From NCBI GenBank assembly GCA_027622315.1, contig JAQBZW010000005.1, positions 1 through 35,747 of the forward strand: 35,747 bases of DNA. The letters run 5' to 3'. Origin of the DNA: Chloroflexota bacterium (GTDB taxonomy: Bacteria; Chloroflexota; Dehalococcoidia; UBA2979). Every line of letters starts with the position of its first letter. Positions within the stretch are counted from its first letter, which is position 1. Under the pieces are notes generated by a model. That model had not been told where the DNA came from, searched no databases, and saw nothing but the letters and a program-made list of their open reading frames with translations. Shown in pieces: positions 29,477-34,395 of this stretch. The position numbers and the translations under genes are program-made.

Positions 29477-29506
29477 GGACGCGCGTCCGCCGGCTAGGGG
29501 GCCGGC
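29477..29506. terminator. Palindromes between converging genes
   Basis: GGACGCGCGTCC (29477-29488) and GCCGGC-TAGGGG-GCCGGC (29489-29506); the second includes the stop codon of the minus-strand MFS gene. No T-runs. Confidence 0.4.
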
Positions 29507-30786
29507 TCGGCCGGGTGGTCGGCACCCGCCCGCGGCTCCCGGCGCGACGCCCACCCATACAACGGCAGCGAGGGCACGAGCACGAGCCCCACCGCCAGGA
29601 GCGCGGCGCGCACAGAACGCACGGTTGCGAGTACGCCGAGCGCGGGGCCACCGGCGACCTGGCCGAGCGCGTCGGCCTGGCTGAAGACGGAGAGCACGGT
29701 CGCGCGCGAGCGTGAGTCGAGGCCGCGGTTCACCCAGGCGAGGAAGAGCGGCTCCTGCGCCGCCCGCACCCAACCCGTTACCCACAGCGCAACGAGCGCC
29801 ACGCCAAAGCCACCCGCCAGCGCGAAGCCGAGCGCGGACGCGATCAGCAGGGTCGCGAGCAAGAAGACGCTGCGCCCGAGCGAGCGTGGATCGTCGAGCG
29901 CGGTGAGCCGCCCCGCCACCCACACCGCCCCAATCCCGCCGACCAACGATCCGGCCTGGATCAGGCCGAACCAGCCGACCGCGCCGAGCCCGAAGAACGG
30001 CGGGAACGAGAACCGCCCCACGAGGTGCAGCGGCCAGAGCCGGTCGAGCGCCTCGCTCGACACCCCGCCGAGCAATGCGATCACGAGGATCGTGAGTAGC
30101 ACCGGCCGGCCGCGCACGCTTCCCGCCGTGAGGCGCATCGTGGCGGTCAGCGCACGCCACTGCCCTTCGCCCGGGCGGCGTCCGGGCGGGGTGTAGCCGC
30201 GCTCGCCCATCGTGACCGCAACGCCAAGCGCATAGACGAGGAAGAGGGCGCCACCGACGAGGAAGGGCGCCTGCAGGCCGATCAGCGCGAGCCCCGTCCC
30301 CAGCGGGATGCCAGCCAGGCGCCCCACGCGCGACACCTGGGCGGCGCGCAGGTATACGCGCGCCGCCGGACCTTCACCGATCTCGTCGGCGAGCCAGGCC
30401 TCGCGCGCGCCGCTTCCGAACGTGTAACCGACGCCCCAGACCACCTGCCCGAGCAACACGAAGGCGAAGCTCGGGACGGCGCCCATGAGCGCGAAGCCGG
30501 CCGCGGTGATGACGTGCCCGATCACGATCGAGAGCCGGCGGCTGTACACGTCGGCCACAACGCCGGTCGGGACCTCCGAGATGAACGCCGCGGCTTCGAG
30601 CCCGGTGCCGGCGAGCACAAGCTGTAGTGGGGTCAGGTGCGCCGCGTCGACGACGTACAGGCCATACGTCGTCAGCGCGAGCGTGAACAGCACGCCGTTG
30701 ATCAGCGCGGTGCCGAGATACAGAGCTGCAGGCGGGAGGGCGCGGCCGGGCAGCAGCGTGGCGCGCCCCTCGGATTGCATCGTCAC
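29494..30786 (-). CDS. MFS transporter (paralogue 1)
   Basis: 430 residues, about 12 membrane helices. Signature loops: EVPTGVVADVYSRRLSIVIG (the 2-3 loop G-x-x-x-D-x-x-x-R-R/K), GSGAREAWLADEIGEG between the halves' early helices, and DRLWPLHLVGRF. The C-terminal half has AWVNRGLDSRSRATVLSVFSQADALGQ. The pattern resembles macrolide/multidrug or tetracycline-type exporters annotated only as MFS. Start: GTG 30786 behind AGGAG at 5 bases, followed closely by an ATG at 30780. A paralogue of about the same length lies upstream on the same strand (stop 274 bases away), with matching start layout and promoter boxes. Probably a drug or metabolite exporter; the substrate is unknown. Confidence 0.88.
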   Translation of the reverse strand: MTMQSEGRATLLPGRALPPAALYLGTALINGVLFTLALTTYGLYVVDAAHLTPLQLVLAGTGLEAAAFISEVPTGVVADVYSRRLSIVIGHVITAAGFALMGAVPSFAFVLLGQVVWGVGYTFGSGAREAWLADEIGEGPAARVYLRAAQVSRVGRLAGIPLGTGLALIGLQAPFLVGGALFLVYALGVAVTMGERGYTPPGRRPGEGQWRALTATMRLTAGSVRGRPVLLTILVIALLGGVSSEALDRLWPLHLVGRFSFPPFFGLGAVGWFGLIQAGSLVGGIGAVWVAGRLTALDDPRSLGRSVFLLATLLIASALGFALAGGFGVALVALWVTGWVRAAQEPLFLAWVNRGLDSRSRATVLSVFSQADALGQVAGGPALGVLATVRSVRAALLAVGLVLVPSLPLYGWASRREPRAGADHPAEPAP

Positions 30787-31008
30787 GATCGCTCCTCGTG
30801 TGGTCCGGCGCGCGGCGGCCGCGCGTTCACAGCGGACGGTCCCCGAACCGGAACGAGGTCGACGTCACGCTGGCGAACCGACGGCTCGCGAGGGCGGCGA
30901 TCGGACGCGTGTTCTGTGCTAGCGGCGGAGAGCCGTGGAGGCGGGTCGGGGGACGAGCGTGCGTGCTGCCATCGAGGGCTCCCATCCCGGGTGACACGAG
31001 GTCGCGAC

Positions 31009-31060: not shown

Positions 31061-32359
31061 TCAGTCGGGCGGGAGATCTCCCGCCGGCGGCCGGTCGAGC
31101 TCGATGCGGCCCTCGCGGCGCGCGAGCACACGGTAGACGGGCAACGTGGGCGCCAGCACCAGCGCGACGCCGACCAGTGCTGCGCGCACGCTGCGGATCG
31201 TGGCGACGATGCCCAGGGCGGGGCCGCCGCCGAACTGGCCCAGCGCATCGGCCTGGCCGAAGATCGAGAGCACGGTGGCACGCGATGCGGGATCGAGACC
31301 GCGATTGACCCAGGCGATGCGCAGCGGCACCGCGCCCTCGCGCAGTGAGTCGGTCGCCCACAGCGCGATCAGAGCGACCCAGAAGCTGCCCGAGAGCGCG
31401 AACGCCAGCGCCGCGAGGATCAGCAAGGCGGTGATCGTGACCAGCGTGCGCGCGATCGACACGGCGCTGTCCAGGCGCGTGAAACGAGCGGCAAGCCAGA
31501 CACCGGCCATCGAACCGACGATCGAGCCCACCTGGATCACGCCGAACCAGCCGACATCGCCCAGTCCGCCCATCGCGGGGAACGCGAAGCCCTCGATCAG
31601 CCAGAGCGGCCACAGCCGGTCGAGGCCTTCGCCTGCGACCCCGAAGAAGAACGCGGTCGCGAAGATCCCGAGCAGGACGGGACTGATGCGCACCGCGCGT
31701 GCACCCGTGCGCAAGGTGTCACCCATGTGGTGCCACGCCCGACGGCTGCCGCGCGGCGCCGGACGCCAGTGTCGCTCCGTCATCGCCACGAGCAGCACGA
31801 GCGCGGCCACGATGTGCACGATGGCGGCGCCGCCGATCGCCAGCCGCACCGAGATCAGGCCGAGCGCGACGGAGAGCGGGGTGCCAATCAGGTGACCGAC
31901 AAGCCAGAACTGACGCTCGCGTGCGTAGATCGGCGCTGCGGCCGCTTCCCCGATCTCATCCGCGAGCCAGGCTTCGCGCGCGCCGCTGCCGAACGTCGCA
32001 CCCACGCCCCACACGATCTGCCCGGCGAGGACGAACGCGAAGGTGGGAACGGCCGCCATCATCAGCCAGCCCACTGCGGTAATCACGAGGCCGATCACGA
32101 CCGAGAGCCGCCGGCTGTAGGCATCGGCCACGATCCCCGTGGGGATCTCGGCGATGAACATCGCCACCTCGAGCCCGGTGCCCAGCAGCACGAGTTGGAG
32201 AGGATTGAGCCCGACATCGCGCACGACGTACAGGCCGTACATGGCGAGCGCGACGCCGATCGCCAGTCCGCGCGCAAGACCCTGCGTGAGGTAGAGCCGT
32301 TCGGCGGAGATCGCGCGTCCTGGAAGCAGTGTGTCTCGACCGGCAGGATGCAGGCTCAG
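31061..32359 (-). CDS. MFS transporter (paralogue 2), apparent CTG start
   Basis: 432 residues if started at CTG 32359. It aligns with paralogue 1 along its length: TLLPGRA, YGLYVV, PLQLVLxGTGLE, EIPTGIVADAYSRRLSVVIG, GSGAREAWLADEIGE, DRLWPLWLIEGF, WVNRGLDPASRATVLSIFGQADALGQ. Upstream of ATG 32242 there is no in-frame ATG, GTG or TTG back to a stop (TAG 32389-32387), yet the frame encodes the missing first helix and TLLPGRA at the same distance from the start as in paralogue 1. GAGGAG (32371-32366) lies 6 bases before CTG-AGC-CTG, aligned with GTG-ACG-ATG of paralogue 1. So initiation at CTG is the simplest reading; starting at 32242 would delete helix 1. Substrate unknown. Confidence 0.85.
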   Translation of the reverse strand: MSLHPAGRDTLLPGRAISAERLYLTQGLARGLAIGVALAMYGLYVVRDVGLNPLQLVLLGTGLEVAMFIAEIPTGIVADAYSRRLSVVIGLVITAVGWLMMAAVPTFAFVLAGQIVWGVGATFGSGAREAWLADEIGEAAAAPIYARERQFWLVGHLIGTPLSVALGLISVRLAIGGAAIVHIVAALVLLVAMTERHWRPAPRGSRRAWHHMGDTLRTGARAVRISPVLLGIFATAFFFGVAGEGLDRLWPLWLIEGFAFPAMGGLGDVGWFGVIQVGSIVGSMAGVWLAARFTRLDSAVSIARTLVTITALLILAALAFALSGSFWVALIALWATDSLREGAVPLRIAWVNRGLDPASRATVLSIFGQADALGQFGGGPALGIVATIRSVRAALVGVALVLAPTLPVYRVLARREGRIELDRPPAGDLPPD

Positions 32360-32523
32360 CGCGTACTCCTCAACCGTCCGATACCGCTACCGATGAAGAG
32401 TGCCGATCGACTGCACTGACGCGCAGAACGGACGCGCGGTCCGAGGTCGCCGCGCAACGCCGCTCGTCGGAACATGATGGGCATCGACCGTGATGGGGGC
32501 GCGGGCCGACCGGTGACTGGATC

Positions 32524-32618: not shown

Positions 32619-33224
32619 TCAGCCGGATCGATGTAAGCGCAGCGACCGCCAGTCCTCGGCAAGCATCCCGTACCAGACGCGGTCGTGCCAGCGATCGCGG
32701 TACCAGCGCGCGGCCGTGAACACGCCCTCCTGGCGGAACCCCAGGCGCTCCGGGATCGCACGACTGCTCGTGTTGCCGCCGTAGACCGCGATCGCGACGC
32801 GGTGCATCTCCAGCGACTCGAAGGCATATTCGGCGAGCGCGGCCACTGTCCGTGTCATGAGGCCGCGGCCGACGAAGGGCAGGCCCAGCCAGTAGCCGAT
32901 CTCGGCCTCGCGATGCGCGGGTACGACGTCGACGAAGCCGCACGACCCGGCGATTGCGCCGCCGACCTCCAGCGCCAGCTCCAGCATCTCACCCCGCGAG
33001 GCTCGCTCGTTCGCGCCGGAAATGAAGTGCTCCGCGCGCCCGAGTTCGTAGCCGTCCACCCAGTCGAGCCACTCGGCGAGGTGCTCCCGGCTGCCATCCA
33101 CGGCTTCGTAGAGCGGCACGGCGTCTGCCGCTCGCCATGGGCGAAGCACCGCATTCCCATCGACGCGAAGCGTCGGCGGCTCGAGCGCCGGTCGGTGGGA
33201 TCGCCCCCGCTCGTGCTGCGGCAT
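32619..33224 (-). CDS. GNAT acetyltransferase (RimL-like)
   Basis: 201 residues. PTLRVDGNAVLRPWRAADAV (N-terminal RimL pattern), WLDWVDGYELGRAEHFIS, AIAGSCGFVDVVP (strand 4), EIGYWLGLPFVGRGLMTRTV with the acetyl-CoA loop VGRGLM, and GNTSSRAIPERLGFRQEGVF with the family Asn and last helix; it ends with WHDRVWYGMLAEDW. Known relatives acetylate ribosomal protein N-termini or small amines; the target here is unknown. Start: ATG 33224 begins 1 base after the acyl-CoA dehydrogenase TGA, so the two are translationally coupled. The MFS gene lies 259 bases downstream with its own promoter. Confidence 0.88.
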   Translation of the reverse strand: MPQHERGRSHRPALEPPTLRVDGNAVLRPWRAADAVPLYEAVDGSREHLAEWLDWVDGYELGRAEHFISGANERASRGEMLELALEVGGAIAGSCGFVDVVPAHREAEIGYWLGLPFVGRGLMTRTVAALAEYAFESLEMHRVAIAVYGGNTSSRAIPERLGFRQEGVFTAARWYRDRWHDRVWYGMLAEDWRSLRLHRSG

Positions 33225-33225
33225 C

Positions 33226-34395
33226 TCAGCCGCGCGGCAGGCCGAGGCCGCGTGTCGCGATGATGTTGCGCTGGATCTCGCTCGTGCCGGCGGCAATCGT
33301 GAGCGACACGCTCGACATGTAGTAGGTGCCGAACTCGCCGCCGAGCGGCGCGCGCGGCTCGCCGCCACGCAACGTTCCAGCGAGCCCGAGCATGTTGACC
33401 CCGCGCCGCGCCAGCCGCTGCTGCGTCTCGGAACCGAACATCTTCGACATGGACGACTCCATGTTCGGGACGAGACTGCGCGCCTGCATCCAGGTCACGC
33501 GGTAGCCCAGCAGCTTCCCGACCTCGATCTCGGTCGCGGTGTCCGCCAGGGCGAGCCGATGCACCGGGTTCTCCACCACACGCCGGCCGTCGCCGGCGCT
33601 GTCCGGCTGCCGCGCGAATTCGAACAGCCGCCGGAACGGCGGCACCGCCGCCGCGATGCGATGGATGCCCGATCGCTCGAAGTCGAGCGTGGTCGTCGAG
33701 ACGTACCAGCCGCGGTTCTCCTCGCCGATCATGTGCTTCGCGGGCACGCGCACGTCTTCGAAGAAAGTCTCGTTGAACCCGCTCTGATCGTGGAGCTGGA
33801 CGATTGGACGGAGCGTGATGCCGGGCGTGTCCATGGGCACCATGAAGTACGAGATGCCGCGGTGCTTCGGAGCGTCGGGGTCGGTGCGCGTGAGCACGTG
33901 GATCCAGTCGGCGTGCTGTGCGCCTGACGTCCAGATCTTTTGTCCGTTGATCACGAAGTCGTCGCCGTCCCGCACCGCCCGCGTCTGGAGCGAGGCGAGG
34001 TCCGACCCCGCGCCCGGCTCGGAGTACCCCTGACACCACTCGACCTCGGCGCTGGCGATGCGGGGGAGGTGTTCCTGCTTCTGGGCTTCATTGCCGTGGA
34101 TGATCAGCGTCGGGCCGACGCGATCGGCGCCCTGCCCGCCGGTGGGGGCACTCGAGTACGCCGACTCCTCGGCGAAGATCAGCTGCTCGAAGTACGAGGC
34201 GTCGGCTCCGCCGTAGGCCTTCGGCCAGGCGCGCGTCAGCCAACCGTGCTCCGCGAGGCGCTTCTGGTACGCCCGCGCGCGCTCCCACGGCTCGAGCTCG
34301 CGTTCTCGGCGCGCGCCTCGTGTCCAGTGCTCGTCAATGAAGGCGCGGACCTCCGCGCGGAAACCCGCCTGCTCGCCGTCCCACCCGAAGTCCAT
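33226..34395 (-). CDS. Acyl-CoA dehydrogenase
   Basis: A 389-residue FAD enzyme related to the one at 13272-14501: WCQGYSEPGAGSDLASLQTR (120-139), VINGQKIWTSGAQHADWIHV, FFEDVRVPAKHMIGEENRGW, TTTLDFERSGI and C-terminal GGTSEIQRNIIATRGLGLPRG. As in that paralogue, the medium-chain catalytic Glu position is Gly (AGGT), and Glu240 in LDFER is the likely base. The N-terminus (MDFGWDGEQAGFRAEVRAFI) lacks the acidic insertion of the other. Start: ATG 34395 with an AAAGGTGG site and a TACGAT box. Co-transcribed with the RimL-like gene (1-base gap). Acyl specificity cannot be read; the group often acts on branched, aromatic or steroid side-chain CoA esters. Confidence 0.93.
   Translation of the reverse strand: MDFGWDGEQAGFRAEVRAFIDEHWTRGARRERELEPWERARAYQKRLAEHGWLTRAWPKAYGGADASYFEQLIFAEESAYSSAPTGGQGADRVGPTLIIHGNEAQKQEHLPRIASAEVEWCQGYSEPGAGSDLASLQTRAVRDGDDFVINGQKIWTSGAQHADWIHVLTRTDPDAPKHRGISYFMVPMDTPGITLRPIVQLHDQSGFNETFFEDVRVPAKHMIGEENRGWYVSTTTLDFERSGIHRIAAAVPPFRRLFEFARQPDSAGDGRRVVENPVHRLALADTATEIEVGKLLGYRVTWMQARSLVPNMESSMSKMFGSETQQRLARRGVNMLGLAGTLRGGEPRAPLGGEFGTYYMSSVSLTIAAGTSEIQRNIIATRGLGLPRG

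Follow-up and report, generated by a model that had tools for sequence, protein, structure and literature searches.

A probable CTG start codon in a TetA(P)-like transporter gene of a Chloroflexota bacterium and similar candidates in the same genome

The window, i.e., the whole stretch of 35,747 nucleotides that was analyzed, comprised positions 1–35,747 of the forward strand of contig JAQBZW010000005.1 from the draft assembly GCA_027622315.1 (309 contigs) of a Chloroflexota bacterium (GTDB: Dehalococcoidia, UBA2979). Two tandem genes encoding TetA(P)-like MFS transporters, hereinafter paralogues 1 and 2, were flanked by acyl-CoA dehydrogenase genes, and a GNAT gene lay upstream. The features considered were as follows:

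29494–30786, minus strand: MFS paralogue 1, start GTG-ACG-ATG, 56–57% identical to paralogue 2
30792–30797, minus strand: GAGGAG of paralogue 1, 5 nt ahead of GTG 30786
31061–32359, minus strand: MFS paralogue 2 (432 codons if started at the proposed CTG, TGA stop), a putative efflux transporter resembling TetA(P)
31063–31061, minus strand: TGA stop of paralogue 2
32240–32242, minus strand: ATG, first canonical codon of the frame, within helix 1, with no Shine–Dalgarno sequence (SD)
32351–32353, minus strand: second CTG (codon 3), an alternative start, 12 nt past AGGAG
32357–32359, minus strand: CTG, the proposed start codon, with no ATG, GTG or TTG in any frame near the SD
32366–32371, minus strand: GAGGAG, the proposed SD, its AGGAG ending 6 nt before CTG
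32387–32389, minus strand: in-frame TAG in the sequence, closing the frame upstream
32619–33368, minus strand: upstream ORF for a GNAT acetyltransferase (Acetyltransf_3), ending about 260 nt before CTG

The product of paralogue 2 belonged to the MFS according to Pfam (MFS_1, 3e-18, 66.3 bits against a gathering score of 33.4). Its best curated matches were the NCBIfam models of the tetracycline efflux MFS proteins TetA(P) (NF000043, 274 bits) and Tet(40) (NF000049, 209 bits), which aligned with it over nearly the full length; however, these scores lay far below the curated cut-off of 750 and the naming cut-off of 800, respectively, so the protein was not assigned to TetA(P), and its efflux role is putative. 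No PDB chains were found for it at E ≤ 0.001.

The start stretch of paralogue 2 was RYRTVEEYALSLHPAGRDTLLPGRAISAERLYLTQGLARGLAIGVALA. Its frame was open from the TAG at 32389–32387 to the TGA at 31063–31061 and intact over 441 codons. An earlier note on this DNA had proposed translation from CTG 32359 and reported no in-frame ATG, GTG or TTG between the TAG and ATG 32242; the sequence check agreed, and these codons were likewise absent between the upstream in-frame stop and the conserved start of the protein. The order described there, with GAGGAG (32371–32366) six bases ahead of CTG 32359, followed by AGC and CTG (32353–32351), was confirmed. As for the correspondence claimed with the start of paralogue 1, the number of residues ahead of TLLPGRA was indeed equal (nine in either paralogue), whereas the distance from GAGGAG was not, being five bases in paralogue 1 and not six. 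Outside GAGGAG, the paralogues resembled each other in their 40-nt leaders no more than shuffled sequences did (p about 0.49); thus, GAGGAG may be regarded as a common signal, with homology of the leaders not demonstrated. In the window, AGGAG was found 4–9 nt ahead of 0.50% of all positions and of 5 of the 1071 CTGs, and the chance of such an arrangement, given two or three near-cognate codons on offer, was about 1–1.5%. The spacing between AGGAG and ordinary starts in this genome peaked at 6–7 nt (26 and 24 cases, respectively); CTG 32359, at 6 nt, was found to have an SD at the proper spacing. An SSU rRNA for checking the anti-SD was not found in the assembly.

The stretch ahead of ATG 32242 had been said to encode TLLPGRA and the first membrane helix, and alignment with paralogue 1, family relatives, and the TetA(P) model bore this out. 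The model alignment began at residue 18 of the CTG-started protein, 22 residues before ATG 32242, and in residues 1–37 the synonymous divergence between the paralogues exceeded the non-synonymous one (dS 1.33, dN 0.52). Homologues were drawn from searches among relatives and at the family, order, class, and phylum levels (in the last case, the best 29 among the matches listed outside the bacterium's own genome), as well as from named genome contigs of Anaerolineae, Caldilineaceae, Litorilinea, and Thermomicrobiales assemblies, names that point to Chloroflexota. There were 55 aligned stretches, among which that of the congener, starting at residue 167, was unusable and one place was duplicated; this left 53 distinct homologous places, paralogue 1 counted in; in late-beginning matches, the anchor was placed by ungapped extrapolation. 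A canonical start upstream of helix 1 was present in 52 of the 53, the sole exception being the copy in the window. In this alignment, TLLPGR or a near form was confined to closer relatives, and the start region of farther relatives contained ATG, GTG or TTG. Judging by its conservation, the stretch before ATG 32242 is coding.

The single copy of the MFS gene in the only congener (genome G001; L007, G001:C259, 1436–2274) lacked the first 166 residues, and with them the N-terminus, and lay shortly after an acyl-CoA dehydrogenase-like gene (named by eye); it was 66% identical to paralogue 2 and 55% to paralogue 1. Its missing N-terminus may reflect a deletion or a misassembly. Since the copy is present only from residue 167 on, it is silent on the first helix, the absence of which from relatives would, according to the earlier note, refute the proposed start; across the other relatives, the helix was present. 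The truncated orthologue also makes loss of the paralogue 2 gene in the genus possible. No CTG-start cases were found among the 276 ORF calls of the congener sample (402,951 bases). In congener locus L235 (7725–9338, minus strand), GGAGG was located 6 nt before ATC, with no canonical start before the coding region, so that an ATC start is possible there.

The sample of the bacterium's own genome, including the window, covered 1,148,416 of 3,133,293 bases (37%). Calling ORFs by codon usage gave 783 calls, including some spurious ones. These were ranked by the coding signal ahead of their first canonical start, and the top 30 were inspected by eye. Three further genes apparently needing CTG were found among the 783 calls, namely, those of an enoyl-CoA hydratase, a phosphotransferase, and a small HAD-like protein. 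In the hydratase gene (L081:11208), AGGAG preceded CTG by 6 nt, and the first canonical codon was located 38 codons on; the ECH_1 match started at residue 19, i.e., 20 residues ahead of the first ATG, and all ten of the relatives fetched had a canonical start at the corresponding place. In the phosphotransferase gene (L161:4258), GGAGG preceded CTG by 5 nt, and the first canonical codon was again 38 codons on; the case is weaker, since the Pfam match, obtained with a query started one codon before CTG, began only about eight residues ahead of that codon. In the gene of the HAD-like protein (L187:5373), a name given by eye with Pfam matches under their cut-offs, only GAG GGA CCG CCG separated the in-frame TGA from CTG, and relatives, the congener included, matched from residues 1–4 with up to 68% identity. 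Thus, with paralogue 2, no fewer than four genes of this genome look CTG-started by their sequences, and as the other three share this type of start, it is not specific to the pump.

For comparison of codons, those preceding the first canonical start and followed by a coding signal were examined for AGGAG or GGAGG at 5–8 nt, which was found for 3 of 32 CTGs versus 8 of 991 other codons (P 0.002, the window gene included); with the window gene removed, 2 of 31 CTGs remained (P about 0.03 by our own arithmetic). The gene of the HAD-like protein, with a weaker signal (GAGG 8 nt ahead of CTG), was missed by this test. In a crude count of codons preceded by an SD with no coding filter, there was no excess of CTG (2/136 for CTG versus 81/9023 for all codons), and none was seen in a second count (3/212 versus 167/15816), the excess appearing only with the filter for coding evidence.

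The CTG start at 32359 is thus well supported by the conserved N-terminus, AGGAG at the preferred spacing, three similar genes, and the lack of ATG, GTG or TTG after it in every frame. It is quite likely that the efflux-type transporter gene of paralogue 2 is intact, is translated from CTG 32359 by means of a strong SD, and is one of at least four genes that look CTG-started. Because three other genes appear alike in the partial survey of the same genome, a genuine CTG start is more probable than a sequence or assembly error. On the error reading, an ordinary gene would have GTG or ATG at 32359 or at 32353; this is unlikely: paralogue 1 does carry GTG and ATG at both corresponding positions, a single wrong base would be enough, and the genome contains some broken genes, whereas CTG stands at the same kind of place in three other genes. 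Two nonsense breaks were noticed in the 783 calls, a TAG in the gene of a solute-binding protein and a TGA that may encode selenocysteine; this count was made by eye at the top of the ranked list and may be low. On this bound, about 0.01–0.02 start-to-CTG changes would be expected in the 783 calls (0.025 for two breaks, 0.12 for ten), and random substitution explains the recurrence of CTG poorly. An indel near the start was rejected, as ATG, GTG and TTG are absent after the SD in every frame, and it would not by itself rescue an ordinary start.

As to the broken genes themselves, the TAG in L085 (G000:C30, about 819–822) splits the gene of the solute-binding protein (named by eye), with coding sequence in the same frame on either side. 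The TGA was found in L130 (G000:C230, 16500–16213, minus strand), which together with its upstream open frame encodes an AhpD/CMD-like protein (named by eye); in the CxxC-like motif NDCAV-TGA-QAARIPL, it stands where the second Cys would be, and no Pfam match was found for the downstream piece. As the genome contains a tRNA-Sec (G000:C272:5376–5468, 70 bits, anticodon tca) and AhpD-like CxxU selenoproteins are known (excerpts of PMC2398784), this protein is a candidate selenoprotein. Three genes named by eye, those of a haloalkane-dehalogenase-like (L123:7675–7968), an LVIVD-like (L127:2219–3709), and a solute-binding-like protein (L179:149–1120), continue from another upstream reading frame, which may be due to frameshifts by assembly error or decay; the assembly thus shows some faults or decay. 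A frameshift is possible in a lipoprotein-like gene (by eye; L116:3514–5259), which has GAGGAGG at its start and lacks a canonical codon in frame ahead of the signal peptide. In the gene of an ECF sigma factor (Sigma70_r2, r4; L174, G000:C31, 2209–1493, minus strand), neither ATG, GTG or TTG before region 2 nor a nearby CTG was found; just upstream of the frame lies an inverted repeat, TTAGCACTC/GAGTGCTAA, which we take to be CIRCE-like.

It is rather improbable that paralogue 2 is a recent pseudogene, its start codon mutated away and the remainder still undecayed. The truncated state of the sole congener copy and the adjoining, apparently redundant paralogue would suit such a history, but the frame of 441 codons is intact, dN/dS is about 0.36 relative to paralogue 1 and 0.42 relative to the congener, the strong SD is retained at the right spacing, and three unrelated genes are arranged similarly. 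Very improbable is a coupled start, in which ribosomes terminating at the TGA of an upstream frame restart at the CTG that it overlaps: the CTGA overlap is present at 32359–32356 and likewise at the CTG of the hydratase, whereas both overlapping frames are non-coding by codon usage (scores −54.4 and −44.0), on which ground a leader peptide was also rejected, and the CTGs of the phosphotransferase and the HAD-like protein have no overlap. A start at ATG 32242, yielding a transporter without half of helix 1, was rejected as scarcely credible, since this first canonical codon of the frame has no SD ahead of it and cuts the helix, the codons upstream are conserved as protein, and the other homologues examined start ahead of helix 1.

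With translation from CTG 32359, GAGGAG would hold the 30S subunit at the best distance from this codon. Because the ribosome would be held there by a strong SD, the ordinary initiator tRNA most likely reads CUG via a weak first-position pair; CTG 32359 rather than CTG 32353 would be the site of initiation, giving an fMet-initiated protein. By analogy with known cases, initiation should be weak and IF3-sensitive, and expression of the pump may be low, as the earlier note had supposed. An IF3 gene was located in this genome. As to an initiator tRNA with an altered anticodon, ARAGORN called Met(cat) five times and Leu(cag) three times across the sampled loci, overlapping loci being counted more than once.

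CTG initiation is of a known but rare kind, and it is the recurrence within one genome that raises the present case. According to excerpts of PMC5472188, infC starts with ATT in E. coli and with ATC in Streptomyces, Streptomyces sigR starts with GTC, IF3 represses non-canonical starts, and initiation at the GTC of sigR is weak and IF3-sensitive; given such repression, the codon could set dosage. Like these genes, paralogue 2 begins at a codon other than ATG, GTG or TTG; unlike them, it has CTG and encodes a transporter. In prokaryotes, switches to CUG numbered 4 among about 68,900 ancestral starts (2/61,358 from AUG, 1/5,080 from GUG, and 1/2,468 from UUG), and weak start codons tended toward stronger SDs (PMC5622118, in part). 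An ancestral AUG, GUG or UUG would similarly have been replaced by CUG here; four candidates in 783 ORF calls are a much higher apparent share, although the measures are not the same, and against such rarity four in one partial genome are unusual. CTG is described as a poor initiator in E. coli, with cryo-EM of CUG complexes formed by a variant initiator tRNA showing a weak first-position pair (PMC11497404), and as a poor initiator in mycobacteria that is not enriched as a leadered start (PMC4633059).

We tentatively suggest that, in this lineage, CTG may have joined the three usual start codons in regular use, enabled by strong, well-spaced SDs in at least about half a percent of the genes, across unrelated functions. 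Gene callers generally take only ATG, GTG, and TTG; CTG-started genes therefore lose their N-termini in annotation, and transporter models from such genomes may lack helix 1. If CTG is in regular use, gene finders limited to these three codons would truncate all such genes. A genome with several CTG starts would be a natural case for how SD strength, IF3, and the initiator tRNA permit initiation at CTG.
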